Translations under genes and position numbers: made by a program
DNA from: Burkholderiales bacterium
Lineage (GTDB): Bacteria; Pseudomonadota; Gammaproteobacteria; Burkholderiales; Burkholderiaceae_C
Direction: 5' to 3'
DNA: 38,741 nucleotides
Assembly (NCBI GenBank): GCA_016185015.1
Contig: JACPOI010000030.1
Location: forward strand, 1 to 38,741
The notes under the pieces: model-generated
What the model saw: the letters and a program-made list of their open reading frames with translations, nothing else
Database searches by the model: none
Told to the model about the DNA's origin: nothing
Part shown: one piece after another, positions 2,374 to 31,343 of the stretch
Numbering within the stretch: position 1 is the stretch's first letter
Layout: each line of letters opens with the position of its first letter

Positions 2374-4092
<1,719 letters not shown>

Positions 4093-4495: not shown

Positions 4496-4505
4496 GGGGG
4501 TTGCC

Positions 4506-4670: not shown

Positions 4671-4679
4671 GGGGTTTCC

Positions 4680-11461: not shown

Positions 11462-11479
11462 GGTGCTTCTCCTTTGAAA

Positions 11480-12223
<744 letters not shown>

Positions 12224-12248
12224 GGTGGGGCTCCTGCGTGTTCGGGGT

Positions 12249-13451
12249 TCAGGCGCTCTGGCCGCTGACGGAACCGGTCAGCGCGGGCTTGCGGCCCGGG
12301 TTGCCGGTCTGCGTGACGGGCGCATCGGAAGCGGCGTCGGCTTCCACCGCCTTGCGGATCGCCAGGCGCTCGGCCTGTTTGCGCTGCCACCAGGGCTTGA
12401 CCTTCGTTTCCCAGACACCGGCCAGGCCGTCGGGGAAGGCCATGGTCACGCCGATGAAGAGCGCGGCCATCAGGAAGAGCCACAGGTCGGGCAGGCTTTC
12501 GGAGAAGTAGGTCTTGCCGAAGTTCACCAGCAGGGTGCCGTAGACCGCACCCACCAGGCTCATGCGCCCGCCTACCGCGGCGTAGATCACCATCTCGATC
12601 GAGGGCACGATGCCCACGAAGGACGGCGACATGAAACCCACCTGCAGCGTGAACAGCGCGCCGCCGATGCCCGAGAGGGCCGCGGCCAGACAGAACACGA
12701 AGACCTTGAACATGGCCACGTCGTAGCCCGAGAAGCGCACGCGGTCTTCCTTGTCGCGCATGGCCAGCAGCAGGGTGCCCAGCTTGCTCTTCTGCACCCA
12801 CAGGCACAGCGCGATGCTGCCCAGCAGCAGGAAGGTGCAGAGGTAGTAGAGGAGGTACTTGGCGCTGTCGGTGCGGGTGTCCCAGCCCAGCACGGTCTTC
12901 AGGTCGGTCATGCCGTTGACGCCGCCGGTGTAACCCTGCTGGCCGATGATGAGCACCGTGAGGATCAGCGCCACCGCCTGCGTGATGATGGCGAAGTACA
13001 CGCCGCCCACGCGCCGCTTGAACATGGCGTAGCCGATGATGAAGGCCAGCAGCGTGGGCACCGCCACCACCGCGAACAGCGCGAAGGACAGGTGCTCGAA
13101 GGGCTGCCACCACAGCGGCAGGGCCGTGAGCTGGTTCCAGTCCATGAAGTCCGGGATGCCGGGGGTGGACTGGATCTTGGTGGTGATCGGGTCCGAGGCT
13201 TCGAGCTTGAGGAACATGGCCATGGCGTAGCCGCCCAGGCCGAAGAACACGCCCTGGCCCAGGCTGAGCACGCCGCCGTAACCCCAGAGCATGACCAGGC
13301 CCAGCGCCACGAAGCCGTAGCTCAGGTACTTGCCCACCAGGTTGAGGCGGAAGATGTCGAAGACGAGCGGAAAGACGACAGCCAGCAGCACGGCCAGGAC
13401 GAGCACGCTGCCCAGCCCCTTGCTGGCGATCCAGGTTTTGAATTGATTCAT
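12249..13451 (-). CDS. urtC: Urea ABC transporter permease UrtC
   Basis: A LivM-type inner-membrane permease of the urea importer. The 400-aa protein has about ten hydrophobic segments. Diagnostic stretches are LWGYGGVLSLGQGVFFGLGGY and the later GRMSLVGAVYGTLLVN, the EAA-like loop that contacts the ATPases. A charged C-terminal tail (KPWWQRKQAERLAIRKAVEAD) is cytoplasmic. It starts 28 bp after urtB. Confidence 0.95.
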   Translation of the reverse strand: MNQFKTWIASKGLGSVLVLAVLLAVVFPLVFDIFRLNLVGKYLSYGFVALGLVMLWGYGGVLSLGQGVFFGLGGYAMAMFLKLEASDPITTKIQSTPGIPDFMDWNQLTALPLWWQPFEHLSFALFAVVAVPTLLAFIIGYAMFKRRVGGVYFAIITQAVALILTVLIIGQQGYTGGVNGMTDLKTVLGWDTRTDSAKYLLYYLCTFLLLGSIALCLWVQKSKLGTLLLAMRDKEDRVRFSGYDVAMFKVFVFCLAAALSGIGGALFTLQVGFMSPSFVGIVPSIEMVIYAAVGGRMSLVGAVYGTLLVNFGKTYFSESLPDLWLFLMAALFIGVTMAFPDGLAGVWETKVKPWWQRKQAERLAIRKAVEADAASDAPVTQTGNPGRKPALTGSVSGQSA

Positions 13452-13479
13452 GGTGTGACTCCGGAAGTAGGAAGCGGGA

Positions 13480-14394
13480 TCAGCGGCGCACCTTGCTGGC
13501 GAACAGGCCTTGCGGGCGGATCATCAGGATCACGACGATGAGCGAGAGCGTCAGCACCTTGGCCATGGAGCCGGTGATGAAGAATTCGCTGATCGACTGG
13601 GTCTGCGCGATGCCGAAGGCCGAGGCCACCGTGCCCAGCAGGCTGGCCGCGCCGCCGAAGGTCACCACCAGGAAGGAGTCGACGATGTAGAGCGAGCCGC
13701 TGGTCGGGCCGGTGGAGCCGATGGTGGTGAAGGCCGCACCGGCCACGCCGGCGATGCCGCAGCCGATGGCGAAGGTCAGGCGGTCGGTCTTGCTGGTGTT
13801 GATGCCGATGGCGTTGGCCATGGTGCGGTTGCTTACCGTGGCGCGCACCCGCAGGCCCCAGCGGCTCTTGTAGAGCGCCAGCAGCACGCCGCAGGTCACG
13901 AAGGTGGTCAGGCCCAGCACGAAGAGGCCGTTGATCGGGATGTCCAGGCCCTCGTGCGGTGCCCAGGAACCCATCAGCCAGTCGGGCAGGGTGGGGCTCA
14001 CTTCCTTGGGGCCGATGGCGGTGCGAAAGACCTGCTGGATGGCCAGGCTCAGGCCCCAGGTGGCCAGGAGCGTGTCCAGCGGACGCTTGTAGAGAAAACG
14101 GATCAGGCCCCACTCCACCAGCCAGCCCGCGATGAAGGCCAGGCAGAAGGCCACCGCGATAGCGACCAGAAAGTAGTAGGGCATCAGATTGGGGGCGTAC
14201 TTTTCCACCAGCGTGGAGAAGAGGAAGACCGTGTAGGCGCCGATGGTCATGAACTCGCCATGCGCCATATTGATCACGCCCATCTGGCCGAAGATGATGG
14301 CCAGGCCCAGGCCCATGAGCAGAAGGACCGAGAACAGGCTCAGTCCGGCGAAGCCCTGCATGAGGGTGATGTCGACGATTTCCTTGAATTCCAT
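13480..14394 (-). CDS. urtB: Urea ABC transporter permease UrtB
   Basis: A LivH-type inner-membrane permease forming the urea channel with UrtC. The 304-aa protein consists mainly of membrane segments, with the conserved GQMGVINMAHGEFMTIGAY and RTMANAIGINTSKTDRLTFA motifs. It is the short UrtB form, without the large periplasmic N-terminal domain found in some UrtB proteins. A strong stem-loop separates it from urtA. Confidence 0.95.
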   Translation of the reverse strand: MEFKEIVDITLMQGFAGLSLFSVLLLMGLGLAIIFGQMGVINMAHGEFMTIGAYTVFLFSTLVEKYAPNLMPYYFLVAIAVAFCLAFIAGWLVEWGLIRFLYKRPLDTLLATWGLSLAIQQVFRTAIGPKEVSPTLPDWLMGSWAPHEGLDIPINGLFVLGLTTFVTCGVLLALYKSRWGLRVRATVSNRTMANAIGINTSKTDRLTFAIGCGIAGVAGAAFTTIGSTGPTSGSLYIVDSFLVVTFGGAASLLGTVASAFGIAQTQSISEFFITGSMAKVLTLSLIVVILMIRPQGLFASKVRR

Positions 14395-14486: not shown

Positions 14487-15755
14487 TTACTGGTAACCCT
14501 TCGGGAAGGGATCGGGTTCGATCAGCTTGGGCGACTCGGCCACCACCTTGAAGGTGCCGTCCTTGTTGCCGATGGCGATGCGCGACTTGCTCCACAGGTG
14601 ATGGTTCTCGTGCAGCTTCACGTAGCCTTCGGGCGCGGTCTTGAGCTCGATGCCGGGCGATGCGGCCACGACCTTGTCCACGTCGAAGCTGCCGGCCTTC
14701 TCGACGGCGGCCTTCCACAGCCAGGGACCCAGGTAACCAGCCTGCGTCACGTCGCCGATCACGGCGTCCTTGCCGTACTTGGCCTTGAAGGCAGCGACGA
14801 ACTTCTTGTTGTTCTCGTTGTCCAGCGACTGGAAGTACTTCATCGAGCTGTAGAAGCCCGTGAAGTTCTCGCCGCCCACACCGGTCATCTCGTCCTCGGT
14901 CACCGACAGCGTCAGCAGGAACTGCTTGTCACCGGTGATGCCGGCGGCCTTGAGCTGCTTGTAGAAGGCCACGTTGGAGCCACCCACCACGGCCGCGAAG
15001 ATGCAGTCCGGCTTGGCCACCTTGATCTTGTTGATCAGGGAGTTGAAGTTGGTGTTGCCCAGCGGGTAGTACTCCTCGCCGACCACCTTGCCCAGCTTGC
15101 CCACGGACTCGATGTGCTTGCGCGCGATCTTCATCGAGGTGCGCGGCCAGATGTAGTCCGAACCCACCAGGAAGAAGGTCTTGGCCTTCTTCTCCTTCGA
15201 ACCCCAGTCCAGGCCGTAGATGATCTGCTGCGTGGCTTCCTGGCCCGTGTAGATCACGTTCTTGCTCTGCTCCAGGCCTTCGTAGAAGGTGGGGTAGTAG
15301 AGCAGGCCGTTTTCCTTCTCGAACACCGGCAGCACGGCCTTGCGCGAGGCGCTGGTCCAGCAGCCGAAGACGGCGGCCACGTGGTCGTTGACCAGCAGCT
15401 TCTTGGACTTCTCGGCGAAGGTCGGCCAGTCGGAGGCGCCGTCTTCCTTGATCACCTTGATCTTGCGGCCCAGGATGCCGCCCATGGCGTTGATCTGGTC
15501 GATGGCCAGCTGCTCGGCCTGGATCGAGCCGGTCTCGGAGATGGCCATGGTGCCGGAAGAAGAGTGCAGCTGGCCCACGATGACCTCGGTGTCGGTCACG
15601 GCCAGCTTGGTCGTGTTGACCTTGGCGGTCGGGAACTGCTGGGCCAGGGCCAGGCCGGGCACGCCGGCCACGGACAGGGCGCCCATGGCCTGCAGGACCT
15701 GGCGGCGCTGCAGACCGGTGGCTAGCGGGTGGGAGGGGGCGGACGGTTTCTTCAT
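14487..15755 (-). CDS. urtA: Urea ABC transporter substrate-binding protein UrtA
   Basis: This is the periplasmic urea-binding protein of the UrtABCDE importer. The 422-aa protein begins with a Tat-like signal (LQRRQVLQAMGALSVAG, cleavage likely after ALAQ). Its mature region includes VGQLHSSSGTMAISE, FGCWTSASRKAVLPVFE and LLYYPTFYEGLEQSKNV, all typical of UrtA. It is the first gene of the operon and diverges from the first transporter-kinase gene across a 221-bp gap, the likely place of its control. Confidence 0.96.
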   Translation of the reverse strand: MKKPSAPSHPLATGLQRRQVLQAMGALSVAGVPGLALAQQFPTAKVNTTKLAVTDTEVIVGQLHSSSGTMAISETGSIQAEQLAIDQINAMGGILGRKIKVIKEDGASDWPTFAEKSKKLLVNDHVAAVFGCWTSASRKAVLPVFEKENGLLYYPTFYEGLEQSKNVIYTGQEATQQIIYGLDWGSKEKKAKTFFLVGSDYIWPRTSMKIARKHIESVGKLGKVVGEEYYPLGNTNFNSLINKIKVAKPDCIFAAVVGGSNVAFYKQLKAAGITGDKQFLLTLSVTEDEMTGVGGENFTGFYSSMKYFQSLDNENNKKFVAAFKAKYGKDAVIGDVTQAGYLGPWLWKAAVEKAGSFDVDKVVAASPGIELKTAPEGYVKLHENHHLWSKSRIAIGNKDGTFKVVAESPKLIEPDPFPKGYQ

Positions 15756-15862
15756 GAGGCACTCCAGTTAGAGGAAGAGGGAACCAGGAAACACCTGCGG
15801 GAGGTGCGGGCAACACCTTGTCACCACGGCCTTGAGATTAGGGAGAGGGGCTGGTTCGGCCC

Positions 15863-15880
15863 ATACGTCAATCAACGTAT
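15863..15880. promoter_or_regulatory. Palindrome in the urtA/sensor-kinase divergent region
   Basis: ATACGT-N6-ACGTAT is a perfect 6-bp-arm inverted repeat centred in the 221-bp gap between urtA and the divergent hybrid kinase. The size and spacing fit a dimeric regulator, for example the LuxR-type response regulator encoded at 19338-20252, but no direct evidence links them. I found no convincing sigma-54 motif in this gap in either direction. Confidence 0.4.
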
Positions 15881-15900
15881 CGCCCGTTTTCGGTGCGGTG

Positions 15901-15976: not shown

Positions 15977-18900
15977 ATGACGAACGCACCGCAAAAAATC
16001 TTCCGCATCCGCCGCGACTACAACTCCTGGGTGGCCAACGAGACCCTGGAGGACTACGCGCTGCGCTACACGCCCCACAGCGCGCGCAAGTGGAGCGAAT
16101 GGCGCGTGGCCAACACCGCCTTCGGCGGCATGTCCTTCCTGGCGCTGGAGGCCATCGGCGGCGCCATCGCGCTCAACTACGGCTTCGACAACGCGCTGTG
16201 GGCCATCCTGGTCATGGGGCTCATCACCTTCCTCACCGGCCTGCCCATCGCCGTCTACGCCGCGCGTTATGGCCTGGACATGGACCTGCTCACACGCGGC
16301 GCGGGTTTCGGTTACCTGGGTTCCACCGTCACCTCGCTGATCTACGCCAGCTTCACCTTCATCTTCTTTGCGCTGGAGGCGGCCATCATGGCGCTGGGCC
16401 TGCAGCTCGTGCTGGACTGGCCGCTGGTGTGGTGCTACGTGCTGTCCTCGCTGGTCATCATCCCGCTGGTGCTCTATGGCATCACCTTCATCTCGCGCCT
16501 GCAGACCTGGACGCAGCCCCTGTGGGCGCTGCTGCTGCTGTGGCCCTTTTTCTGGTTCGCCGTGGCCCAGCCCGAGCTGTACCGCGAATTCACCGGCCTC
16601 TCGGGCCTGACTTCGGGCAGCAGTGGCTTCGAACCGCTGATGTTCGGCGCGGCGGCGGCGGTGGCCTTCTCGCTGGTGGTGCAGATCGGCGAGCAGGTGG
16701 ACTACCTGCGGTTCATGCCCGCGCGCACCGTCGCCAACCGCTGGCGCTGGTGGGCCTGCGTGCTCAGCGCCGGGCCGGGCTGGATCGTGCTGGGCATGCT
16801 CAAGATGTTGGGCGGCGCCTTCCTGGCCTTCGTCGCGCTGCAGTACGGTGCGCTGCCCGGCCACGCAGCCGAGCCCACGCAGATGTACCTGGTGGGCTTC
16901 AACCTCTCGCTGGGCAACCCGATGCTGGCCCTGTGGCTGACCGTGCTCTTCGTGGTGATCTCGCAGGTCAAGATCAACGTCACCAACGCCTACGCCGGCT
17001 CGCTGGCCTGGAGCAATTTCTTTGCGCGGCTCACGCGCAGTCACCCCGGGCGCGTGGTCTGGCTGGTTTTCAACGTCATCATCGCCATGCTGCTCATGAC
17101 CCTGGGCGTCTTCGGCGCGCTGGAGAAAGTGCTGGGCCTGTACGGCAACGTGGCCATCGCCTGGGTTGGCGCGCTGGTGGCCGACCTGGTCATCAGCAAG
17201 CCGCTGGGCCTGAGCCCGAAGGGCGTGGAGTTCCGCCGCGCCTACCTGTACGACCTCAACCCCGTGGGTCTGGGCGCCATGCTGCTGGCCGTGGTGCTGG
17301 CCGGCGTGGCCTACACCGGCGTGCTGGGCGACTACGCGGCCGCTTTCTCGCCTTTTATCGCGTTGTTCACCGCCATGCTGGCCGCACCGCTGCTGGCCTG
17401 GGCCACGAAGGGGCGTTATTACCTGGCGCGCCACGACGCCTCACCCTGGAAACCGGGCGAGGTGGTGCGCTGCAGCGTCTGCGAGAACCAGTTCGAGAGC
17501 GCCGACATGGCCAGCTGCCCGGCCTACGGCGCGCCCATCTGCTCCTTGTGCTGTTCGCTCGAATCGCGTTGCCACGACCGCTGCAAGACCCAGTCGCGCG
17601 CAGCCGACCAGGTGCGCGATGCCCTGGCCGCCTTCCTGCCGGCCGGGCTGAACAACCGTTTCAACTTCCGCGTGGCGCAGTACTTCACGGTCTTCCTGGG
17701 CCTGTCCGCGCTGCTGGCCTTCCTGCTGGGCGTGGTCTATATGCAGGAGAGCCTGCACGCCCCGGCCGACGCGCTGCGCATGCCCTTCATCAAGGCCTTC
17801 TCGCTGCTGGCCGTGCTGGCCGCCGTGTGCGCCTGGTGGGTGGTGCTGGCCAACGAGAGCCGGCGCATGGCGCACGACGAGTCCGAGCGCCAGACCCAGT
17901 TGCTGCAAAAGGAGATCGACGCGCACCAGCGCACCGACGAGGCCCTGCAGGGCGCCAAGGAGGTGGCGGAGTCCGCCAGCCAGGCCAAGACACGCTACGT
18001 GGCCGGCATGACACACGAACTGCGCACCCCGCTCAACAGCATCCTGGGTTACGCGCAGATCCTGCTGCGCGGCAACGAGTTGCAGGGCAGCGCGCGCGAG
18101 ATGGTCACCACCGTCCAGCAAAGCGGCCAGCACATGCACGCGCTGATCGACGGCCTGCTGGACCTGGCCCGCATCGAAGCCGGCCGCCTGCGCCTGGACC
18201 CGGCACCCTTGCCCTTCCCGGAGTTCCTGTCGGAACTCGCACGCATGGTGCAGCCCCAGGCCGAAGGCAAGGGCCTGGCCTTCCGCCTGGAAACCCAGGG
18301 CCGTGTGCCGGCCTGGGTGCAGGCCGACGCCAAGCGCCTGCGCCAGATCCTCATCAACCTGCTGGCCAATGCCGTGCGTTTCACCGACCGCGGCGGCATC
18401 GTCTTTCGCGTGGATTGCCGGCACGAGGTGCTGCGCTTCGAAGTGGAAGACACCGGCATCGGCATCGCCCCGCAAGACCAGGAACGCATCTTCCAGCCCT
18501 TCGAGCGCGGCAGCGCGGGCCGGCGCACCAGCGAGTCGGGCACCGGCCTGGGCCTGACCATCACGCACCTGCTCACCGAACTCATGGGCGGCGAGCTCAC
18601 TCTGCGCAGCGCCGTGGGCGAGGGCAGCACCTTCAGCGCGCGCCTCTATCTGCGCGAGATTGATCCCCCCGCCGTGCCCGCCGTGCGGCACCTGCGGCCC
18701 ATCGTGGGTTACCTCGCGCCGCGCCGCACCCTGCTGGTGGTGGACGACCAGCCCATCCAGCGCCAGCTGCTGGCCAGTCTGTTGCTGCCCCTGGGGTTCA
18801 TCGTGCGCGAAGCCGCCAGCGGCCGCGAGGCGCTGGAGATCCTGCAGCAGCACCCGCCCGACGCCGTGCTGCTCGACATCAATATGGACGACCTCAACGG

Positions 18901-19351
18901 CTGGCAGACCGCGCAACTCATCCGCAATACCGGCACCGCGAGCCTGCCCGTCATCTTCGTCTCGGCCGACCCCTTCGAGAATCGCCCCGAGCTGCTGGCC
19001 GCTGTCGGCGCGCAAGGCTTCGTGAGCAAGCCCGTGATCGAGTCCGAGCTGCTGGACCTGCTGGCGCGCGTGCTGCAGCTGGAGTGGGTGCACGAAACCC
19101 AGCGCCTGGCCGCGTCCCCCACCGCGCCCGACGGCGCCACCGCGCTGCCGCTGCCCGCCGAGCTGCGCCAGAGCCTCATCGCCATGGCGCGCCTGGGCAA
19201 TGCCAGCGGCCTGCGTACCCTGCTGCGCAACAGCGCTCAGGAGGCCCCTGCCATCGCCGACGTGCTGCAGGCCCTGGTGGTGCATGTGGACCGTTTCGAC
19301 TTCACCGCCCTGATCGCCCGCCTGAAAGAGACCGAAGATGAATCCGCCTGA
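15977..19351 (+). CDS. Hybrid sensor histidine kinase with NCS1 transporter-like N-terminus (system 1)
   Basis: A 1124-aa membrane sensor. Residues 1 to about 470 are a multi-helix region like NCS1 (purine/cytosine/allantoin permease) transporters, with LTRGAGFGYLGS and QVKINVTNAYAGSLAWSNFF. An eight-Cys module follows at 499-536, then two helices from about 569 and 608. The HisKA domain has THELRTPLNS (phospho-acceptor His680), then an N-box ILINLLANAVRF, DTGIGIAP and GTGLGLT ATP-binding boxes, a receiver domain (Asp967 in VLLDINMDD) and a C-terminal helical tail. The start at 15977 (MTNAPQK) was chosen because it puts the conserved IRRDYNSW near the N-terminus; a TTG at 15911 adds 22 residues. 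It overlaps the response-regulator gene by 14 bp. The permease half probably senses or transports a nitrogen compound; the ligand is unknown. Confidence 0.9.
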   Translation: MTNAPQKIFRIRRDYNSWVANETLEDYALRYTPHSARKWSEWRVANTAFGGMSFLALEAIGGAIALNYGFDNALWAILVMGLITFLTGLPIAVYAARYGLDMDLLTRGAGFGYLGSTVTSLIYASFTFIFFALEAAIMALGLQLVLDWPLVWCYVLSSLVIIPLVLYGITFISRLQTWTQPLWALLLLWPFFWFAVAQPELYREFTGLSGLTSGSSGFEPLMFGAAAAVAFSLVVQIGEQVDYLRFMPARTVANRWRWWACVLSAGPGWIVLGMLKMLGGAFLAFVALQYGALPGHAAEPTQMYLVGFNLSLGNPMLALWLTVLFVVISQVKINVTNAYAGSLAWSNFFARLTRSHPGRVVWLVFNVIIAMLLMTLGVFGALEKVLGLYGNVAIAWVGALVADLVISKPLGLSPKGVEFRRAYLYDLNPVGLGAMLLAVVLAGVAYTGVLGDYAAAFSPFIALFTAMLAAPLLAWATKGRYYLARHDASPWKPGEVVRCSVCENQFESADMASCPAYGAPICSLCCSLESRCHDRCKTQSRAADQVRDALAAFLPAGLNNRFNFRVAQYFTVFLGLSALLAFLLGVVYMQESLHAPADALRMPFIKAFSLLAVLAAVCAWWVVLANESRRMAHDESERQTQLLQKEIDAHQRTDEALQGAKEVAESASQAKTRYVAGMTHELRTPLNSILGYAQILLRGNELQGSAREMVTTVQQSGQHMHALIDGLLDLARIEAGRLRLDPAPLPFPEFLSELARMVQPQAEGKGLAFRLETQGRVPAWVQADAKRLRQILINLLANAVRFTDRGGIVFRVDCRHEVLRFEVEDTGIGIAPQDQERIFQPFERGSAGRRTSESGTGLGLTITHLLTELMGGELTLRSAVGEGSTFSARLYLREIDPPAVPAVRHLRPIVGYLAPRRTLLVVDDQPIQRQLLASLLLPLGFIVREAASGREALEILQQHPPDAVLLDINMDDLNGWQTAQLIRNTGTASLPVIFVSADPFENRPELLAAVGAQGFVSKPVIESELLDLLARVLQLEWVHETQRLAASPTAPDGATALPLPAELRQSLIAMARLGNASGLRTLLRNSAQEAPAIADVLQALVVHVDRFDFTALIARLKETEDESA

Positions 19352-20252
19352 TGCTCCGCACGCCCCCGCCGTCTCCAGCGTGGTGCTGGTGGTGGACGAC
19401 GCGCCTGAGACCCTGCGCATGCTGTGCGACGCGCTGGCCATCGAGGGCTACACCGTGCTGGTGGCACGCGACGCCATCGAGGCGCTGGAGCGTTTCGAGA
19501 TGGCCGTGCCCGACGCCGTGCTGCTCGACGCCATCATGCCCGGCGACGACGGCTTCACCCTCTGCCGCCGCCTCAAGGGCGAGCCCTCCTGGGCCCACGT
19601 GCCCGTGATCTTCATGACCGGCCTGGCCGAGACCGAGCAGATCGTCGAAGGCTTCGCCAGCGGCGGGGTGGACTACGTCGTCAAGCCGCTCAAGATTCCC
19701 GAGGTGCTGGCCCGCCTGGCCACGCACCTGCGCAACGCCCACGTGAGCCGCCTGGCACGCGAGGCGGTGGACGTGGCCGGCCTGGGCGTGGTGCTGCTGG
19801 ACACGCAGGGCCGCATGGCCTGGCGCTCGCCGCAGGCCATGCGCTGGCTGCAGCAGGCCCTGGGCCCGGAGCAGGACGAGGCGGCGCTGCGGCAGTGGCT
19901 GCAGCGCGTGGTCACCGAAGGCGAGACCCTGGCCGCGCTGCCCGACGGCAGCCAGCTGCAGGCGCGTTACCTGGGCCAGGGCGGCCCCGGGGAAGTCATG
20001 GTGCTGCTGCGCCGTGTCGCGCTGGCGCTCGACCCGGCGCAGCGCCGGCTTTCCGTGGCGGCGCTCACCCCGCGCGAGACCGAGGTGCTCTCCTGGCTGG
20101 CCAAGGGCAAGACCAACCGCGACATCGGCGACATCCTGGGCATGAGCCCGCGCACGGTCAACAAGCATCTGGAGCACATCTTCGAGAAGCTGGGGGTGGA
20201 GACGCGCACCGCAGCGGCGGCGATTGCGAGCAGCCTGTTGCAGGAAGGGTAG
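19338..20252 (+). CDS. LuxR-family response regulator (partner of system 1 kinase)
   Basis: A 304-aa regulator. The receiver domain has an acidic pair in LVVDDAP, the phosphorylation Asp64 in VLLDAIMPG, the Thr in FMTGL and the Lys in VVKPL. A roughly 90-aa linker contains a PAS-like stretch (GLGVVLLDTQGRMAWRS). The C-terminal LuxR/NarL helix-turn-helix runs LTPRETEVLSWLAKGKTNRD to LGMSPRTVNKHLEHIFEKLG. The gene overlaps the kinase by 14 bp, so they are a pair. Candidate targets are the divergent urt-fmd operon and its own kinase gene. Confidence 0.92.
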   Translation: MNPPDAPHAPAVSSVVLVVDDAPETLRMLCDALAIEGYTVLVARDAIEALERFEMAVPDAVLLDAIMPGDDGFTLCRRLKGEPSWAHVPVIFMTGLAETEQIVEGFASGGVDYVVKPLKIPEVLARLATHLRNAHVSRLAREAVDVAGLGVVLLDTQGRMAWRSPQAMRWLQQALGPEQDEAALRQWLQRVVTEGETLAALPDGSQLQARYLGQGGPGEVMVLLRRVALALDPAQRRLSVAALTPRETEVLSWLAKGKTNRDIGDILGMSPRTVNKHLEHIFEKLGVETRTAAAAIASSLLQEG

Positions 20253-20305
20253 ACTGGTGTTTCGCAGCGCACGCTAACAAGACCCGCGCCGCCCGGAGCC
20301 ACCCC

Positions 20306-20944
20306 ATGATTCCACCTGCCGATCTGCTGATGTTTGCCGGTGCCGCACTTCTGATGGTGCTTACGCCCGGCCCCAATATGGTCTACCTGATCTCGCGTTC
20401 CATCTGCCAGGGGCGCAAGGCCGGGGTGATTTCGCTGTTCGGTGTGGTCGCGGGTTTCCTGATCCACATGCTGGCCGCGGCCGCCGGCCTGACGGCCCTG
20501 TTCATGGCGGTGCCGCTGGCGTATGAGCTGCTGAAGTGGTTCGGCGCGGCCTACCTGCTCTACCTCGCCTGGCAGGCGGTCCGGCCCGGCGCCCGTTCGC
20601 CTTTCGAGGCCCGGCAACTGCCCGAGGACCCACCGCGCAAGCTCTTCCTGATGGGTTTCCTGACAAACCTGCTGAACCCGAAGATCGCGGTGTTCTACCT
20701 GTCCATCTTTCCGCAGTTCGTCTCCGCCGAACATGGCTCGGTGTTCACGCAAAGCATCGTCCTGGGCCTGACGCAGATCACCATCAGCTTCAGCGTCAAT
20801 CTCTGCATTGCCCTCTTCGCCGCCAGGATGGCCGCGTGGTTTGTCGGCAATCCGCGCTGGCTGGCGGCGCAGCGTTACTTCATGGGCTGTGTGCTGGCGA
20901 CGTTGGCGGTGCGTCTGGCGGCCGAACAACGCCGTACGGCCTGA
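20306..20944 (+). CDS. LysE/RhtB-family amino-acid exporter
   Basis: A 212-aa inner-membrane protein with about six hydrophobic segments. The family signature is MVLTPGPNMVYLISRSICQG near the N-terminus, and LMGFLTNLLNPKIAVFYLSIFPQF is the conserved central motif. LysE/RhtB proteins export amino acids or related metabolites by proton antiport. The ATG at 20306 has GGAG seven bases upstream; the frame is open further upstream, but only as a shadow of the response regulator. It lies 53 bp after the regulator gene, so it could be co-transcribed. The substrate cannot be told from sequence. Confidence 0.9.
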   Translation: MIPPADLLMFAGAALLMVLTPGPNMVYLISRSICQGRKAGVISLFGVVAGFLIHMLAAAAGLTALFMAVPLAYELLKWFGAAYLLYLAWQAVRPGARSPFEARQLPEDPPRKLFLMGFLTNLLNPKIAVFYLSIFPQFVSAEHGSVFTQSIVLGLTQITISFSVNLCIALFAARMAAWFVGNPRWLAAQRYFMGCVLATLAVRLAAEQRRTA

Positions 20945-20962
20945 GGCCGGGTTGACTCAGGC
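20939..20962 (+). terminator. Hairpin at the end of the LysE-family gene
   Basis: GCCTGAG (20939-20945) and CTCAGGC (20956-20962) are perfect inverse complements with a 10-nt loop. The stem covers the stop codon. No U-tract follows, so intrinsic termination would be weak. It also marks the boundary to lower-GC accessory DNA. Confidence 0.35.
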
Positions 20963-21033
20963 GCGACAGGGCCTGGGCATGCCGAGGAATGGCTGATATA
21001 TAACAGCCACCTAGACCACATCACGGAGGAGTC

Positions 21034-21087
21034 ATGAACTTTGTGATGCCGACAGATTTGCGGCCTATATCAAGTTTGACGCCATGA
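21034..21087 (+). CDS. Possible 17-aa leader ORF with strong RBS
   Basis: ATG at 21034 follows a GGAGGA three bases upstream and encodes MNFVMPTDLRPISSLTP. Its TGA (21085-21087) overlaps the ATG at 21084 of the next gene in an ATGA arrangement, which would couple translation. The next gene has no obvious Shine-Dalgarno of its own, which supports a leader role. The frame is too short to rule out chance. Confidence 0.35.
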   Translation: MNFVMPTDLRPISSLTP

Positions 21088-21488
21088 TGATTGTTCGCTG
21101 CGTGCTCTTGTCTCTTGCGCTTATCTCTAGTGCAGTAGTTGCAAAGGATCAAAACTTTGTCGGCTGGCTTATCTATCCAACTCAGGCGGGGAGCCCAAGC
21201 ATTGAGTTGCCTACTGAAAGAGGACCGTGGAGACTGTTGCGTCCTGATGGGTCACTCATAGTCGAAATGACACAACCACGATTGAAGCCAGGTTACACCT
21301 TCAATTTTGGTGAGTGCCGCATTGGTGGTGTTATCCGCCATGACCTGGTCGCAATGGTTCGCCACGTAAATGCACGCGAATGGTCGAAGGAAGTCGAGGC
21401 CGTATGGATCGCAGATCCAGAGGCGAGACACTTCATTGCCCAATTTGGAAAAAACATTGAGTGCAGAAATGAGGGCTATGGTGTCTAA
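21084..21488 (+). CDS. Hypothetical secreted protein (cassette-like, low GC)
   Basis: A 134-aa protein of unknown function. Residues 1-21 (MMIVRCVLLSLALISSAVVA then KDQ) look like a Sec signal peptide, so the mature protein is probably periplasmic. A second ATG follows directly at 21087. The mature part has no recognisable motif; it holds PWRLLRPDGSLIVEM and ends with a Cys-containing tail (NIECRNEGYGV). Base composition is clearly lower in G+C than the neighbours. The stop codon lies inside an attC-like sequence, so the gene may be a former integron cassette. Confidence 0.65.
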   Translation: MMIVRCVLLSLALISSAVVAKDQNFVGWLIYPTQAGSPSIELPTERGPWRLLRPDGSLIVEMTQPRLKPGYTFNFGECRIGGVIRHDLVAMVRHVNAREWSKEVEAVWIADPEARHFIAQFGKNIECRNEGYGV

Positions 21489-21541
21489 CCTTTCGGTCAA
21501 GCGCTCGCGCGGAAGCGCGCGGCTGAGCCGAGACGCTTGGC
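21483..21541 (+). repeat. Degenerate integron attC-like site
   Basis: The 59-bp stretch starts with a perfect inverse-core GTCTAAC (21483-21489), overlapping the stop of the preceding gene. It then reads TTCGGTCAAGC, a GC-rich imperfect hairpin, and a GGCTGAG...GACGCTTGGC end. The order matches attC sites of the aadA type as I remember them. The right core GCTTGGC departs from GTTRRRY by a C and a T, so the site is probably dead. No integrase gene is in the window. Confidence 0.45.
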
Positions 21542-21559
21542 GTCCAAACGGAGGCAAAC

Positions 21560-22219
21560 ATGACACGAGTGCGCGTTGAAGGTTTCACCATTTCGCTCGA
21601 CGGCTACGGCGCCGGCCCGGATCAGGACCTCAACCATCCGCTGGGCATCGGCGGGACGGATCTGCACCAGTGGTTGTTTCCGACACGCACGCTGCAGCGC
21701 GCCTTGTTCGGCAAGGACGGTACGACCGGGGTCGACGATGATTTCGTCGCCCGTGGCTTTCAGAATGTCGGGGCCTGGATACTGGGGCGGAACATGTTCG
21801 GGCCGGTACGCGGCGCTTGGCCCGACAACAACTGGAAAGGCTGGTGGGGCGACAGCCCGCCTTATCACGTTCCCACGTTCATCCTGACCCATCACGCGCG
21901 CGAGTCCATCGTGATGGAAGGCGGCACGACCTTCCACTTCGTCACGGGCGGCATCCACGAGGCGCTGGACCGGGCGCGCGAGGCCGCCCAGGGCAAGGAT
22001 GTGCGCATCGGCGGCGGGGCCCACACCATCCAGCAATATCTGCGTGCGGGCCTCATCGATGAGCTGCACATCGCCATCTCGCCGGTTCTGCTGGGCGGGG
22101 GAGAGCGCTTGTTCGAGGGGCTGGACATGCGCGCTCAGGGCTACGAATGCGTGCAGTTCGTCGCGTCGGAGAAGGCCACGCACGTTGTCCTTCGGCGCCA
22201 GGGGCGCACAGGCGCCTGA
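21560..22219 (+). CDS. Dihydrofolate reductase/RibD C-terminal-like family protein (cassette-like)
   Basis: A 219-aa protein of the DHFR/RibD-C superfamily (YyaP/YwjB-like). FTISLDGYGAGPDQ at the N-terminus is the typical first strand and loop, ILGRNMFGPVRG the next conserved segment, VRIGGGAHTIQQYLRAGLID the NADPH-binding glycine motif, and ELHIAISPVLLGGGERLFEG the end. Members reduce NADPH-dependent substrates, but most have no known substrate and are not folate enzymes. A GGAGG lies 6 bases upstream of the ATG. It lies between two attC-like sequences. Confidence 0.85.
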   Translation: MTRVRVEGFTISLDGYGAGPDQDLNHPLGIGGTDLHQWLFPTRTLQRALFGKDGTTGVDDDFVARGFQNVGAWILGRNMFGPVRGAWPDNNWKGWWGDSPPYHVPTFILTHHARESIVMEGGTTFHFVTGGIHEALDRAREAAQGKDVRIGGGAHTIQQYLRAGLIDELHIAISPVLLGGGERLFEGLDMRAQGYECVQFVASEKATHVVLRRQGRTGA

Positions 22220-22266
22220 CCAGCGCTTGCAGCGGGCGGCGCTGTCGCTGAACCGGAGCGTCAGCC
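22214..22266 (+). repeat. Second degenerate attC-like site
   Basis: GCCTGAC (22214-22220, one base from the core GCCTAAC) overlaps the stop of the DHFR-like gene. Inner arms CAGCG and CGCTG follow, and it ends AACCGGAGCGTCAGCC, close to the frequent AACGGGCGTTAGGC end of attC sites. The outer cores pair as GCCTGAC/GTCAGCC with one mismatch. It lies after its gene in the same orientation as the first site, as in a cassette array. Both sites are degenerate. Confidence 0.35.
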
Positions 22267-22332
22267 GCCTAAGAGAAGTGCCGTAGCGCCGGTGTGGAGA
22301 AACGGGAATTTCTGTCGCAAAGGAGAAGTGAC

Positions 22333-22818
22333 ATGCTGACACCAGCAAAGAACAGGATCTGCCTTTGGTACAACGGCGGCGCCGAAGAAGCGGCACGGTT
22401 CTACGCCCGTACATTCCCCGACTCCTCCGTCGGCGCCGTGTACCGCGCGCCGGGAGACTTTCCGTCGGGGAAGCAAGGCGATGTGCTGACCGTGGAGTTC
22501 ACGGTCATGGGGATCCCCTGTCTCGGGCTCAACGGAGGGCCTGCCTTCACGCACAGCGAGGCGTTTTCTTTCCAGGTGGCGACCACGGATCAGGCCGAAA
22601 CGGATCGTTACTGGAACGCGATCGTGGGCCATGGCGGCCAGGAAAGCGCTTGCGGCTGGTGCAAGGACAAGTGGGGGTTGTCGTGGCAGATCACACCGGT
22701 GGTTCTGACCCGAGCCATCGCTGACCCCGACCCGGCTGCTGCCAAGCGCGCCTTCGATGCGATGATGGAGATGACAAAAATCGACATCAGTGCCATCGAG
22801 GCGGCGCTACGCGGCTGA
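22333..22818 (+). CDS. VOC-superfamily (PhnB/3-demethylubiquinone methyltransferase-like) protein
   Basis: A 161-aa protein of the VOC (glyoxalase-fold) superfamily, PhnB-like group. NRICLWYNGGAEEAARFYARTF, FTVMGIPCLGLNGGPAF and SEAFSFQVATTDQAETDRYW are the usual strand-helix pieces, and the segment CGWCKDKWGLSWQITP is the conserved family ending. The start at 22333 has AGGAGA 6 bases before it; a GTG at 22294 is less likely. Such proteins are frequent cassette or accessory genes, and most have unknown substrates. It may be part of the cassette-like group upstream. Confidence 0.88.
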   Translation: MLTPAKNRICLWYNGGAEEAARFYARTFPDSSVGAVYRAPGDFPSGKQGDVLTVEFTVMGIPCLGLNGGPAFTHSEAFSFQVATTDQAETDRYWNAIVGHGGQESACGWCKDKWGLSWQITPVVLTRAIADPDPAAAKRAFDAMMEMTKIDISAIEAALRG

Positions 22819-22908
22819 GCGGCGGCTGCCATACGCCGCAGGGTGGCGCCCCTGAGAGGCCACGCCCCCAGCTTTAACACCAGGCAGTTTCCGCCCCAGC
22901 CCGGGGCA

Positions 22909-22924
22909 TGGCACGGAATCTGCA
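22909..22924 (+). promoter_or_regulatory. Sigma-54 promoter motif before the second sensor kinase
   Basis: TGGCACGgaatcTGCA has a perfect -24 element TGGCACG and a -12 with one change (cTGCA for TTGCA), with GG and GC separated by ten bases. Transcription would start near 22935, only two bases before the ATG at 22937. The message would therefore be leaderless, or translation would begin at a later start such as GTG at 22997. Confidence 0.6.
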
Positions 22925-22936
22925 CTCTCCCGGGGC

Positions 22937-25900
22937 ATGGACGCCCCGGCCCGCCCTTCCGCTGACCTTGCTGCGCCGCCGCATGCGCCGGCGGCTGTGC
23001 AGTCCATCGTCAAGATCCGGCGCGACTACAACAGCTGGGTGGCGCGCGAGACCATGGAGGATTACGCGCTGCGCTACACGCCGCAGCGCTTTCGCAAGTG
23101 GAGCGAATGGCGGGTGGCCAACACGGCTTTCGGCGCGGCCTCCTTCCTGATCCTGGAGGCTGTGGGCGCCACGCTGCTGGTGCAGTACGGCTGGGCCAAT
23201 GCCTTCTGGGCCATCCTGGCCACGGGGCTCATCATCTTCCTGGCGGGCTGGCCCATCAGCGTCTATGCCGCGCGCTACGGCGTGGACATGGACCTGCTCA
23301 CGCGCGGCGCGGGTTTCGGCTACATCGGCTCCACCATCACCTCGCTGATCTACGCGAGTTTCACCTTCATCTTCTTCGCGCTGGAGGCCGCCGTCATGGC
23401 CTATGCGCTGGAGCTGGCCTTGGGCATCCCGCCCAGCTGGGGTTACCTCATCTGCGCGCTGGTGGTCATCCCCCTGGTCACGCACGGGGTCTCGGCCATC
23501 AGCCGCTTGCAGGTCTGGACGCAGCCGCTGTGGCTGCTCATGCTGGTCGTGCCTTTTGCCTTTGTGCTGGCGCTGGACCCCGCTGCGTTTTCGGGCATCG
23601 TGCACTACAAGGGGGAGAAGGGTCAGAGTTCGGAGTTCGTCCTGCCCCTGTTTGGTGCCGCCCTTACGGTGGGCATCGCCCTCATCACCCAGATGGGCGA
23701 GCAGGCCGACTACCTGCGTTTCATGCCGGCCCAGACCGCCGCCAACCGCAAGCGCTGGTGGTTCGGTGTCATGGCGGGCGGCCCGGGCTGGGTGCTGCTG
23801 GGCGTGGTCAAGATGCTGGGCGGGGCGCTACTGGCCTATCTGGCCATCACGCATGCCGTGCCCATCGAACGCGCGGTGGACCCGAACCAGATGTACCTGG
23901 CCGCCTACGAATACGTGTTCCCGAATTACGGCTGGGCGGTGGCGGCCACAGCCTTGTTCGTGGTGATCTCGCAGCTCAAGATCAACGTCACCAACGCTTA
24001 CGCGGGGTCGCTGGCCTGGAGCAACTTCTTCTCGCGCCTCACGCACAGCCACCCGGGGCGAGTGGTGTGGGTGGTTTTCAACACCCTCATCGCCTTCATG
24101 CTCATGGAGATGAACGTCTTCCAGGCCCTGGGCGACGTGCTGGGCCTGTACAGCAACATCGCCATCGCCTGGATGATGGCCGTGGTGGCGGACCTGGTCA
24201 TCAACAAGCCCCTGGGCCTGTCGCCCAAGGGCATCGAGTTCAAGCGCGCGCACCTCTATGACATCAACCCCGTGGGCGTGGGCGCCATGGTGCTGGCCTC
24301 CATCCTCTCGGTCACGGCACACCTGGGCCTCTTCGGTCCGCTGGCCCAGGCCTTCTCGGCGCTGATCGCGCTGGGCACGGCCTTTGTGGCCGCACCGCTG
24401 ATCGCCTGGGCCACCCGCGGGCGTTATTACATCGCGCGGCAGAGTGAGCTGGTGGCGGACACCCAGGCCAACGAAGGCCCCTATGCCCGCTACGGCGTGC
24501 GCCGCTGCGTGATCTGCGAGGGCGAGTACGAAGGGCCGGACATGGCCCATTGCCCGGCCTACCAGGGCCCCATCTGCTCCCTGTGCTGCACGCTGGACGC
24601 ACGCTGTGGCGACCTGTGCAAACCGCACGCCAGCCTCTCGGCCCAGTGGTCGGGGGTGCTGCAGCGCCTGCTGCCCAAGAGCCTGCGGCCCTACCTGGAC
24701 ACGGGCCTCGCGCATTTCCTGCTGCTCATGCTCATCATCGTGCCATTGCTGGCCGGCGTGTTCAGCCTCTTCTACCAGCAGGAGCTGCAGGGCCTGGCGC
24801 TGGTCTACGCCGACAGCGAATTGCCCGCTTTTGTGCAGGCCGCTCTGCGCGGCGGCTTTCTGAAGACATATATGGCCCTGCTGCTCCTCGCTGGCATGGT
24901 GGCCTGGTGGGTGGTGCTGGCGCACAAGAGCCGCCAGGTGGCGCAGGAAGAATCGAATCGCCAGACGGCCCTGCTAATGCGTGAGATCGAACTGCACCAG
25001 CAGACCGACGCCGCCCTGCAGGACGCGCGCCGCACGGCCGAGCGCGCCCAGCACCAGGCCGAACAGGCCAACCAGGCCAAGAGTCGTTACATCAGCGCCA
25101 TCAGCCACGAGCTGCGCACGCCGCTCAACAGCATCCTGGGTTATGCGCAGCTCATGGGTGAAGACCCGCAGGTGCCGGCGCACCGCAAGCACGCGGTGCA
25201 GGTGATACGCCGCGGCGGCGAGCATCTGCTGACGCTGATCGAAGGCACGCTGGATCTGGCGCGCATCGAATCGGGCAAGCTCACGCTGGAGCTCAAGCCC
25301 ATGGACTTCGCCGCCTGCGTGCACGAGCTGGCCGCCATGTTCGAGCTGCAGGCCGCGGCCAAGGGCCTGGCCTTCAACTTCACGCCGCTCTCCGTGCTGC
25401 CCGAGCGCGTGCGCGCCGACGAGAAGCGCGTCCGCCAGATCCTCATCAACCTGCTGGGCAATGCCATCAAGTTCACCGCGCAGGGCGAGGTGACCTTCAG
25501 CGTGCGCTACGCGCGCGAGATGGCACACATCGACATCCGCGACACCGGCCCCGGCATGACCCTGCAGGAGACCGAGCGCCTGTTCGAGCCCTTCACGCGC
25601 GCTGCTTCCTCACAGGGCACCCCCGGCGCCGGCCTGGGCCTGACCATCGCCAAGATGCTCACCGACCTCATGGGCGGCGAGCTCACCGTGCAAAGCACGC
25701 AGGGCCTGGGCTCGGTCTTCCACGTCAAGCTCTTCCTGCCCGAGGTGCATGCCGCGCAGCCTTCGGCCAAACCCGTGGCCGCCAAGCCACCGCGCCGCGG
25801 TTACGCGGGCGCACGCCGCCATGTGCTGGTGGTGGACAACGAAGAGCCCGACCGCGAGATGCTCACCCAGCTGCTCGTGCCCCTGGGCTTCGTGCTGCGC

Positions 25901-26440
25901 ACCGCCGCCAGCGGCCACGATGCGCTGGACCTGCTGGCCGCGGGCTACCGCCCCGATGTGGTCTTCATGGACCTGGCCATGCCCGGCATCGACGGCTGGG
26001 AAACCATACGCCGCCTGCGTCGCTTGAACGGCCTGGCCAAGCTGCCCGTGGCCGTGGTCTCGGCCAACGCCTTCGACCAGGGCCTGGAGAACGACGCCGG
26101 CATCACCCCCACCGACTTCATCACCAAACCAATACGCCACAGCGAGCTGCTCGACTGGCTGGAGCGCCGCCTGCAACTGCAGTGGACCGTGCGGCCCGAG
26201 CCGGTGGTCGCGCCCGCGCCGCCGCCCGGGCCCGTGCTGCCGCCGCGCAGCGAGCGCCTGGCCGAGCTGCGCGAACTGGTGGTGCTGGGCTATTACCGCG
26301 GCATCGTGCGCCTGCTCGACGAGATCGAGGCGCAAGGCCCCGAGCACCACGCCTGGGTCGAGCAGGTGCGTGTGCTCACACGCGCCTACCGCTTCGACGC
26401 CATCCTTCCCTTGCTGGAACCGAACGCCGAGACGCCATGA
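22937..26440 (+). CDS. Hybrid sensor histidine kinase with NCS1 transporter-like N-terminus (system 2)
   Basis: A 1167-aa paralogue of the kinase at 15977-19351. The shared opening is IRRDYNSWVARETMEDYALR, followed by the same permease-like region to about residue 495 (LTRGAGFGYIGS, QLKINVTNAYAGSLAWSNFF). The eight-Cys module lies at 524-561, two membrane helices follow, then HisKA with SHELRTPLNS (His724), HATPase (ILINLLGNAIKF, DTGPG, GAGLGLT) and a receiver with Asp1012 in VVFMDLAMPG. A coiled Gln/Ala-rich linker precedes HisKA. Whether the ligand differs from system 1 is not visible. The gene overlaps its regulator by four bases (ATGA). If the upstream sigma-54 motif is real, GTG 22997 may be the true start. 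Confidence 0.9.
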   Translation: MDAPARPSADLAAPPHAPAAVQSIVKIRRDYNSWVARETMEDYALRYTPQRFRKWSEWRVANTAFGAASFLILEAVGATLLVQYGWANAFWAILATGLIIFLAGWPISVYAARYGVDMDLLTRGAGFGYIGSTITSLIYASFTFIFFALEAAVMAYALELALGIPPSWGYLICALVVIPLVTHGVSAISRLQVWTQPLWLLMLVVPFAFVLALDPAAFSGIVHYKGEKGQSSEFVLPLFGAALTVGIALITQMGEQADYLRFMPAQTAANRKRWWFGVMAGGPGWVLLGVVKMLGGALLAYLAITHAVPIERAVDPNQMYLAAYEYVFPNYGWAVAATALFVVISQLKINVTNAYAGSLAWSNFFSRLTHSHPGRVVWVVFNTLIAFMLMEMNVFQALGDVLGLYSNIAIAWMMAVVADLVINKPLGLSPKGIEFKRAHLYDINPVGVGAMVLASILSVTAHLGLFGPLAQAFSALIALGTAFVAAPLIAWATRGRYYIARQSELVADTQANEGPYARYGVRRCVICEGEYEGPDMAHCPAYQGPICSLCCTLDARCGDLCKPHASLSAQWSGVLQRLLPKSLRPYLDTGLAHFLLLMLIIVPLLAGVFSLFYQQELQGLALVYADSELPAFVQAALRGGFLKTYMALLLLAGMVAWWVVLAHKSRQVAQEESNRQTALLMREIELHQQTDAALQDARRTAERAQHQAEQANQAKSRYISAISHELRTPLNSILGYAQLMGEDPQVPAHRKHAVQVIRRGGEHLLTLIEGTLDLARIESGKLTLELKPMDFAACVHELAAMFELQAAAKGLAFNFTPLSVLPERVRADEKRVRQILINLLGNAIKFTAQGEVTFSVRYAREMAHIDIRDTGPGMTLQETERLFEPFTRAASSQGTPGAGLGLTIAKMLTDLMGGELTVQSTQGLGSVFHVKLFLPEVHAAQPSAKPVAAKPPRRGYAGARRHVLVVDNEEPDREMLTQLLVPLGFVLRTAASGHDALDLLAAGYRPDVVFMDLAMPGIDGWETIRRLRRLNGLAKLPVAVVSANAFDQGLENDAGITPTDFITKPIRHSELLDWLERRLQLQWTVRPEPVVAPAPPPGPVLPPRSERLAELRELVVLGYYRGIVRLLDEIEAQGPEHHAWVEQVRVLTRAYRFDAILPLLEPNAETP

Positions 26441-27438
26441 ACGACACCCTGGACCAGGCCCTGAACCGCGCGCACAGCGACGTGGTGCTGATCGTGGACG
26501 ACGTGCCCGACAACCTCTCGCTGCTGCACGACGCGCTGGACGAATCGGGTTGCACCGTGCTGGTGGCGCTGGACGGCGCCTCGGCCCTGCAGCGCGCCGC
26601 GCAGGCGCGCCCCGACATCGTGCTGCTCGACGCCATGATGCCGGGCATGGACGGCTTCGAAGTCGCGCGCCGCCTCAAGGCCAATGCTGCCACCGCCCAC
26701 ATCCCCATCATCTTCATGACCGGCCTGACCGAGACCGAGCACCTGGTGGCTGCGCTCGAAGCCGGCGGCACCGACTACGTGACCAAACCCATCCGACCGA
26801 AGGAAGTGCTCGCCCGCATGCAGGTGCACCTGCAGGGCGCCCGCGAACGCCGCCAGGCCCGCAACGCGCTCGACGCCTTCGGGTACGCCAGCATCACCGT
26901 GCGCCTGGGCGACGGCCGCCTCATGTGGCAGACCCCGCTGGCGCGTGAGCTGCTGCAGCGCTACTACGGCGCCAGCGGCCCCAACGTGCCCGAGCCCGTG
27001 CTGGCCTGGCTGCACCGCAGCGTGGCCCATCTGGCCGAGGTGCAGGCCCGCGGCGAGTCCCTGGCCGAGCCGCCGCGCCTGTCGCTGGAGCACGGCCCCA
27101 AGCGCCTGACCTTCCGCCTGCACCAGCGCAACGACGACACCGGCGCACCCGACACCGGCGGCGACTGGCTGCTCATCATGCAGGAAGCCTCAGACGAGTC
27201 CGTCATCGAAGCCATCTCCCTGAGCTTCCGCCTCACGGCCAAGGAGGCCGAGGTGCTCTACTGGGTCATCAAGGGCAAGATCAACCGCGACATCGGCGAC
27301 ATCCTGGGCAGCAGCCCCATGACGGTCAAGAAACACCTTGAGCGGGTCTACGCCAAGCTGGGGGTGGAGACGCGCACGGCGGCGGCGGCGCTGGCCTTGG
27401 GGCGGATACGGCAGTTGCATCCGCAGTTTGAGGGTTGA
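26437..27438 (+). CDS. LuxR-family response regulator (partner of system 2 kinase)
   Basis: A 333-aa regulator whose ATG lies in ATGA with the kinase stop. The receiver has LIVDDVPDN, phospho-acceptor Asp65 in VLLDAMMPG, FMTGL and YVTKPI. A linker of about 130 residues precedes the LuxR-type helix-turn-helix (LTAKEAEVLYWVIKGKINRD to SSPMTVKKHLERVYAKLG). The domain layout and the helix-turn-helix resemble those of the regulator at 19338-20252, including the ending KLGVETRTAAAA, so the two systems are duplicates and may share DNA sites. Confidence 0.92.
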   Translation: MNDTLDQALNRAHSDVVLIVDDVPDNLSLLHDALDESGCTVLVALDGASALQRAAQARPDIVLLDAMMPGMDGFEVARRLKANAATAHIPIIFMTGLTETEHLVAALEAGGTDYVTKPIRPKEVLARMQVHLQGARERRQARNALDAFGYASITVRLGDGRLMWQTPLARELLQRYYGASGPNVPEPVLAWLHRSVAHLAEVQARGESLAEPPRLSLEHGPKRLTFRLHQRNDDTGAPDTGGDWLLIMQEASDESVIEAISLSFRLTAKEAEVLYWVIKGKINRDIGDILGSSPMTVKKHLERVYAKLGVETRTAAAALALGRIRQLHPQFEG

Positions 27439-28247: not shown

Positions 28248-28303
28248 TTGAATCAATCTCAACGTGAGATGACATATATTCCTTTGCGCTGGAATTTCTT
28301 CCT

Positions 28304-31310: not shown

Positions 31311-31343
31311 TTGCTACATGTATACAAGACCGAATGCAGCAAG

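Follow-up and report, generated by a model that had tools for sequence, protein, structure and literature searches.

Two paralogous hybrid histidine kinases with a predicted NCS1-fold input domain in a urea and amide gene island of a Burkholderiales bacterium

Transporter-fused sensor kinases are known with SLC5-STAC or Amt input. In CbrA, CrbS and RpuS, an SLC5-STAC transporter domain is fused via a linker to a nutrient-regulating histidine kinase, according to the account in PMC13022988, and an ammonium sensor of Kuenenia is described as an Amt domain joined to a histidine kinase (PMC5764959). In addition, a LuxR-type two-component pair has been placed beside urtABCDE, with the sensor left undescribed in the passage concerned (PMC13296017). 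The present analysis concerns a stretch of 38,741 nucleotides from a Burkholderiales bacterium (assembly GCA_016185015.1, contig JACPOI010000030.1), here called the window, which encodes two sensor kinases, HK1 and HK2, and their regulators, RR1 and RR2.

We put at roughly two-thirds the probability that these are two-component systems whose input comes from an NCS1-fold urea/short-amide permease and whose regulators act on palindromic operators. The evidence computed for this reading comprises the architecture, the predicted fold, the neighbouring genes, the clade split among relatives and the conserved palindromes. No description of an NCS1-type kinase, or of two-component control of urtA or fmdA by this family, was found in the open-access papers searched, most subscription journals lying outside the scope of the search.

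Architecture and fold of the kinases

HK1 (15977-19351, plus strand; 1124 residues) begins with an NCS1-like transporter domain (15977-17446, about residues 1-490; AlphaFold, Foldseek and hhalign), followed by a cysteine motif (17471-17584, residues 499-536), two extra transmembrane helices between motif and kinase (17666-17851, about residues 564-625, the second end being approximate) and HisKA, HATPase_c and receiver domains (17984-19060; Pfam). HK2 (22937-26440, plus strand; 1167 residues) is its paralogue, with 51.6% identity across 1064 residues, and has the cysteine motif at 24506-24619 (from the alignment of relatives, A1) and the three Pfam domains at 25076-26158. The boundaries run in parallel in HK1 and HK2, respectively: HisKA at residues 670-736 and 714-780, HATPase at 784-892 and 828-934, and receiver at 920-1028 and 963-1074. 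Both proteins carry an HELRTP box, and both have IRRDYNSWVA near the N terminus. The 3' end of HK1 is overlapped over 14 nt by RR1 (19338-20252, plus strand) and that of HK2 over 4 nt by RR2 (26437-27438, plus strand); each regulator combines a receiver with a LuxR-type GerE domain (Pfam), and the two are 45.9% identical across 305 residues. With an H box, an HATPase domain, a receiver and an overlapping GerE regulator gene in each case, HK1 and HK2 are hybrid histidine kinases with LuxR-type regulators. As a previous sequence-only reading of this DNA had noted, the two pairs are paralogous and the kinases share their opening and domain order; HK1-RR1 and HK2-RR2 each form a two-component system.

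That reading had also assigned the N-terminal halves to NCS1. The direct sequence route to their identity gave no match, so fold and profile comparison were used instead. The AlphaFold model of HK1 residues 1-680, made from the two window sequences and 38 genome-contig sequences, reached a mean predicted local distance difference test score of 82.3 and a predicted template modelling score of 0.79. In a Foldseek search with this model, rows 1-5 were CodB and Mhp1 (best E 1.1e-9; template modelling score 0.72 by target), and SLC5 and other LeuT-fold proteins came after them; the predicted model thus has the NCS1 (LeuT-type) fold. Profile homology to NCS1 also exceeded that to SLC5 decoys: hhalign gave 98.9% over 401 columns for A1 against a four-sequence NCS1 alignment, compared with at most 0.35% for PutP and ActP (SLC5) and at most 0.56% for 20 shuffled CodB sequences. 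Moreover, a standalone relative (L048), 45-47% identical to the window domains, scores above the PF02133 cut-off. Because of the predicted fold, the profile comparison and this standalone relative, the N-terminal domain is best placed in a distant branch of NCS1, largely beyond the reach of curated models, and the earlier assignment holds in that form.

Several results weigh against it. The N-terminal halves have no Pfam match at E<=1, including PF02133 (Transp_cyt_pur), and neither single-sequence nor profile searches of Protein Data Bank sequences with this half gave a match. PF02133 reaches one of the 10 members of A1, a weak similarity to known NCS1 proteins, and hhalign with CodB as a single sequence gave 53% and 32%. 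In favour of NCS1, by contrast, the NCBIfam cytosine permease model matches six of the 10 members; for HK1 the match has an E-value of 1.7e-4 and 20.5 bits, the cut-off being 326.

The cysteine motif, CxxC-x11-C-x7-CxxCC-x5-C-x3-C, comes after the transporter helices. Among 197 aligned fusion proteins (195 fetched, including the unusual fusion L177 described below, and the window's two), six of the eight cysteines are present in all 197 and the other two in 196. Between motif and kinase, the HK1 model has helices at 564-592 and 597-678. Neither the motif nor these helices figure in the sequence-only reading. No STAC match was found by Pfam in HK1 or HK2, and in the model this region consists of the beta/cysteine motif and transmembrane helices; a Prok-RING_1 match on the motif (Pfam, E 0.96) is an insignificant hint. 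The near-complete retention of the cysteines would suit a different explanation, in which the motif is the true sensor, of zinc, nickel or redox state, with the NCS1 part serving as a scaffold in the membrane. Urease requires nickel, and a HupE/UreJ cluster lies close to 20 urease-linked loci. However, the motif is also carried by standalone permeases, with all eight cysteines in 7 of 13, and is present at formamidase-only loci as well, and we regard a sensing role of the motif itself as improbable.

At one locus (L177, 7341-11009) the NCS1-cysteine module is joined to PAS-GGDEF-EAL, with no kinase. Given this fusion, the NCS1-cysteine part may be a general input module.

Relatives, gene neighbours and the probable ligand

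Relatives are common in the window's own family, with matches in 85 of 150 sampled genomes (two of these having remote standalone permeases alone), in 19 of 369 genomes sampled by class (including three rows other than full fusions) and in 52 of 398 sampled by phylum (E<=1e-30). A scan of genome contigs confirmed at least 552 relatives, of which the best 80, a set biased to close relatives, were used as named loci and include Bradyrhizobium, Pseudomonas, Burkholderia, Variovorax, Marinobacter and a cyanobacterium. Flanks were fetched for a further 117 places, 52 of them from 60 chosen among the family-genome matches. Labels for the neighbourhoods came from tblastn markers up to 6.5 kb away, which replaced gene calls that were often antisense. 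A FastTree phylogeny of 223 rows unites the fusion proteins in a single clade (support 99) with no complete permease inside it, the standalone permeases falling outside. This clade holds 202 fetched rows and the window's two; two proteins are duplicated, which leaves 200 distinct members.

The labels of 217 distinct proteins, loci with short flanks included, were urt with fmd (91), ure (33), urt (23), distant urt (16), fmd (14), distant urt with ure (8), urt with ure and fmd (1), none (16) and short contig (15). Within the fusion clade, 177 of the 200 distinct members have a urt, ure or fmd gene no more than 6.5 kb away, and seven are on short contigs. An association with nitrogen-metabolism genes is thus strongly supported. 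Profile comparison does not place the N-terminal half outside NCS1, and the neighbours of the relatives are not consistently unrelated to nitrogen metabolism, these being the two findings that the sequence-only reading had named as fatal to it. In the clade that contains HK1 (support 96), 40 of 41 relatives are linked to urt and the remaining one is on a short contig; in that of HK2 (support 97), 36 of 39 are linked to urease and three, among them a Hylemonella relative (L057), are unlinked. The HK1 clade sits at urt-formamidase loci and the HK2 clade at urease loci. Both clades come mostly from one bacterial family, so their rows cannot be counted as independent events. An RR1/RR2-type gene adjoins 164 of 181 testable proteins, and four more had no room for one. 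On the other side of the balance, 16 of the 200 fusion-clade relatives have no urt, ure or fmd marker within 6.5 kb, 17 of the 181 testable proteins have no adjacent RR1/RR2-type gene, and some 18 kb separate HK2 of the window itself from the urease genes.

Five shorter kinases (L217, L226, L263, L267 and L270; 882-921 residues) have no adjacent RR1/RR2-type gene, and their loci hold formamidase and AmiS/UreI. In another genome (G049, contig 1, 1577399-1580541) a sensor relative is split into two matches, the first of which contains two stop codons.

The ligand of HK1 and HK2 is most likely urea or a short amide (formamide or other), as judged from gene context and the standalone permeases. 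The main reason is that the transport partner beside the kinases changes, being a UrtABCDE ATP-binding cassette importer, an NCS1 permease or a channel-type AmiS/UreI protein, while the urea and amide genes stay. Kinase-less permeases of this branch adjoin ureG at L284-L290 (seven genomes from a single family; the L290 permease is incomplete), and in six others (G410, G902, G903, G890, G897 and G900) a permease lies directly before fmdA and divergent from a kinase. An AmiS/UreI gene was found at six loci (by Pfam on L267 and by tblastn on five). Recurrent neighbours confirmed by Pfam are a zinc-ribbon protein (FmdB-like by reading), HupE/UreJ and AmiS/UreI. One standalone permease, L307 in G902, lies beside an AtzF-like gene; it is the most divergent of the thirteen compared.

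The sequence-only reading had offered urea, amides, allantoin-like compounds or purines as the sensed compound. Gene context and the same-family permeases beside ureG or fmdA favour the first two; purine and allantoin sensing was set aside on the content of the neighbour clusters, since no nucleobase, allantoin or hydantoin gene was recognised in the 40 commonest other clusters (mostly by eye, three by Pfam). The same result bears on a broader alternative, that the domain responds to one of the classical NCS1 substrates (cytosine, uracil, hydantoin, allantoin or a purine) as a signal of nitrogen-rich compounds, the urea genes being downstream products. Most functionally characterised NCS1 members transport nitrogen heterocycles, as stated in PMC13390362 and PMC9379551, and the window also encodes an AMP nucleosidase and an allophanate hydrolase (31311-33083, passing its NCBIfam cut-off). 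Nevertheless, MetT is described as an NCS1 protein with a non-cyclic substrate (PMC13390362). Furthermore, Gln105 and Trp108, given as the cytosine contacts of CodB (PMC9379551), correspond to Thr127 and Phe130 in the kinase alignment, letters common to the fusions and the ureG- and fmdA-linked permeases. We see only a slim chance that a classical substrate is the cue.

The permease comparison kept 13 proteins after removal of L231 (remote) and of L290 and L297 (incomplete). Glu134, Gln236, Glu239, Gln240, Asn334 and Asn337 are invariant in these permeases and the 197 fusions, and Thr127 is kept in all 13 permeases and all but two of the fusions. At the CodB sodium site, as described in PMC9379551, Thr278 and Thr279 align with Asn337 and Ala338, and Asn275 is kept as Asn334. 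The many invariant positions would agree with a full transceptor, in which the domain still transports urea or an amide and the kinase responds to transport cycling or flux. Such a model is discussed for CbrA, which is treated as both transporter and kinase in PMC7096432 and PMC13022988. Three positions of the first transmembrane helix speak against this: Asp occupies position 57 in 12 of 13 permeases, compared with Leu, Met or Ile in 197 of 197 fusions; Tyr occupies position 54 in 12 of 13, compared with Phe in 197 of 197; and position 58 holds Gln or Phe in the permeases and Glu in all 197 fusions. In addition, urtA lies within 6.5 kb in 138 of the 202 clade rows, so that a dedicated importer is usually near. 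It is possible, given these substitutions, that the sensors have lost ion coupling, and a transceptor appears unlikely, if less so than a classical-substrate or a cysteine sensor.

Operators, promoters and proposed mechanism

To the left of HK1, on the minus strand, lie urtABCDE, fmdA, an aliphatic amidase gene, MoxR/VWA-type genes (by reading) and urease genes. As the sequence-only reading had pointed out, urtA (14487-15755; TIGR03407 above cut-off) diverges from HK1. It is followed by urtB-urtE (10772-14394; open reading frames named by reading and by conserved order in relatives), the formamidase gene fmdA (9496-10728; NF045496 above cut-off), the aliphatic amidase (7632-8669; NF009802 above cut-off) and the urease genes (408-4982; ureC by profile, above its NCBIfam cut-off, and ureA, E, F and G by reading). 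The urt, fmd, amidase and urease genes between 408 and 15755 are all on the minus strand and downstream of the operator predicted for RR1.

An unguided count of inverted repeats found TACGT-N6-ACGTA in 43 of 81 non-redundant upstream regions of urt-linked kinases, compared with tops of 2-3 in five shuffled sets. The palindrome, TACGTCAnnTGACGTA, lies between urtA and the kinase, and 105 of 108 scannable intergenic regions score at least 15 with a matrix of 71 sites that was built partly from those same 108; the figure for random segments of the same loci is 20 of 1090, with true sites not excluded from the draw. In the window the predicted RR1 operator is CCATACGTCAATCAACGTATCG (15861-15882, no strand assigned), which scores 29.3, the best score in 20 shuffled windows being 11.8. 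TACGTN6ACGTA occurs once in the 4.02-Mb genome, at 15864-15879, and the reversed control pattern likewise once. With a matrix of 16 alpha- and gammaproteobacterial sites alone, this site ranks first (20.3) and one at 28258 second (17.6). In 17 cases the palindrome also precedes fmdA by 80-140 nt, and permease-fmdA loci carry it between kinase and permease. Exact copies of TACGTCAnnTGACGTA in the 150 family genomes number four in three genomes, three at HK-urtA or HK-fmdA intergenic regions and one elsewhere. The second-ranked site (28258-28279) is a weak operator-like sequence before a reductase-like gene at 28304 and scores 11.9 with the full matrix.

A variant palindrome, TACGCCAnnTGGCGTA, stands before a second urtA. 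Exact copies occur at 20 sites in 18 of the 150 genomes, and 17 of these 18 are among the 85 with sensor matches. Two of three sites in one genome (G080) have no locus and were left out of the downstream check; among the other 18 sites, a UrtA match lies directly downstream in 16, fifteen at 37-44% identity to the window's UrtA and one weak at 24%. On another contig of the window's own genome (C64) a perfect inverted repeat, TACGCCGTCCGGCGTA, with two mismatches to TACGCCAnnTGGCGTA, precedes a second urtA (L325; TIGR03407 above cut-off). The palindrome before the second urtA is the likely target of RR2.

The recognition helices fit different operators for RR1 and RR2. Regulators were recovered for 33 of 41 HK1-clade and 31 of 39 HK2-clade relatives. 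Arg272 and Asn275 are present in 34 of 34 regulators of the RR1 clade, whereas in the RR2 clade position 272 is Ala (19), Met (7) or Arg (6) and Lys275 occurs in 26 of 32.

Upstream of HK2, the sequence-only reading had seen a sigma-54 motif, and a -24/-12-like site, TGGCACGGAATCTGCA, was indeed located at 22909-22924 (plus strand), with 20.5 of 21.5 on a self-made, consensus-based score. Sites of at least 18.5 on this score lie before 57 of the 109 urt-linked kinases and 27 of the 55 that are linked to urease or a second urt; in 29 of the latter 55, a sigma-54-like site points the opposite way too. Random segments reach 18.5 in 2.4% (urt-linked), 2.9% (urease or second urt), 5.0% (formamidase-only) and 3.1% (unlinked).

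The regulatory part of the proposal also has evidence against it. The number of TACGCCAnnTGGCGTA sites is near that of control matches (20 sites versus 15 in 13 genomes), and in the window's own genome, at up to two mismatches, 12 sites face 50 for the control; therefore the location of the second operator alone speaks for it. No common palindrome was found beside urease-linked kinases, most of these loci being without a clear operator. HK1 of the window lacks a strong sigma-54 site (best 15.5), and among the 7 formamidase-only relatives 0, and among the 16 unlinked ones 4, have a site of at least 18.5.

The claim that both systems control this island thus divides. For HK1-RR1 it is likely, with a single predicted operator between urtA and HK1. 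For HK2-RR2, about 18 kb from urease and without a clear operator in the window, the better prediction is the unlinked second urt operon of this genome, and urease in relatives.

From these data we infer the ligand, the pairing of regulators with palindromes, the direction of regulation, a metal in the cysteine motif and the loss of transport. The input domain of HK1 and HK2 would derive from an NCS1-fold urea/short-amide permease, probably captured once. Occupancy of the transporter-like pocket by the ligand would be passed through the cysteine motif and the two extra membrane helices to the dimerisation/histidine domain, and the phosphate would reach the LuxR-type regulator of the overlapping gene, which would bind a palindromic operator. 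Gene position suggests that RR1 binds the first palindrome and RR2 the second. RR1 would activate the divergent urtABCDE-fmdA-amidase(-urease) run, its own operon or both via TACGTCAnnTGACGTA, and RR2 would act at TACGCCAnnTGGCGTA-type sites before the second urtA. Since sigma-54-type promoters often precede the kinase genes, production of the sensors would be expected under nitrogen shortage.

A more ambitious version, which we hold tentatively and at slightly under even odds, is that one capture from the urea/short-amide branch of NCS1, followed by duplication, gave rise to two insulated sensor-regulator lines, one for Urt1-formamidase-amidase and one for urease-Urt2. Their operators would differ at one symmetric base, their receptors would be transport-dead and lack the permease aspartate of the first transmembrane helix, and the module would have been joined to other outputs (PAS-GGDEF-EAL, L177).

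Comparison with known systems

Urea and amides are common nitrogen sources, and this family suggests how bacteria may detect them. Cytoplasmic regulators for these compounds include UreR and AmiC-AmiR. If the proposal is true, HK1 and HK2 would belong to a widespread class of membrane sensors that detect urea and short amides, and the NCS1 fold would join SLC5 and Amt as kinase input. Transporter and sensor pairs within one family would offer a route to what converts a carrier into a receptor, and the operators and target genes named here are open to direct testing.

Among the transporter-fused sensor kinases described in the open-access papers searched, none was found with an NCS1-like input domain. 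HK1 and HK2 resemble CbrA, CrbS and RpuS in that a secondary-transporter domain is linked to a histidine kinase. However, their domain is NCS1-like rather than SLC5 (Foldseek, hhalign), a cysteine motif and two transmembrane helices appear to stand where CbrA has STAC, and they have an overlapping LuxR-type regulator gene and lie at urea/amide loci. The Kuenenia Amt kinase is likewise a transporter-fused nitrogen sensor, with an Amt/Rh domain unrelated to that of HK1 and HK2. The kinase and receiver part resembles NahK/ErcS and other NCBIfam hybrid kinases; the 25 best such matches per kinase are all below cut-off and all in the C-terminal half. Lastly, CodB and Mhp1 share the predicted fold and remote profile similarity with HK1 and HK2, whereas CodB, Mhp1 and MetT are without a kinase.

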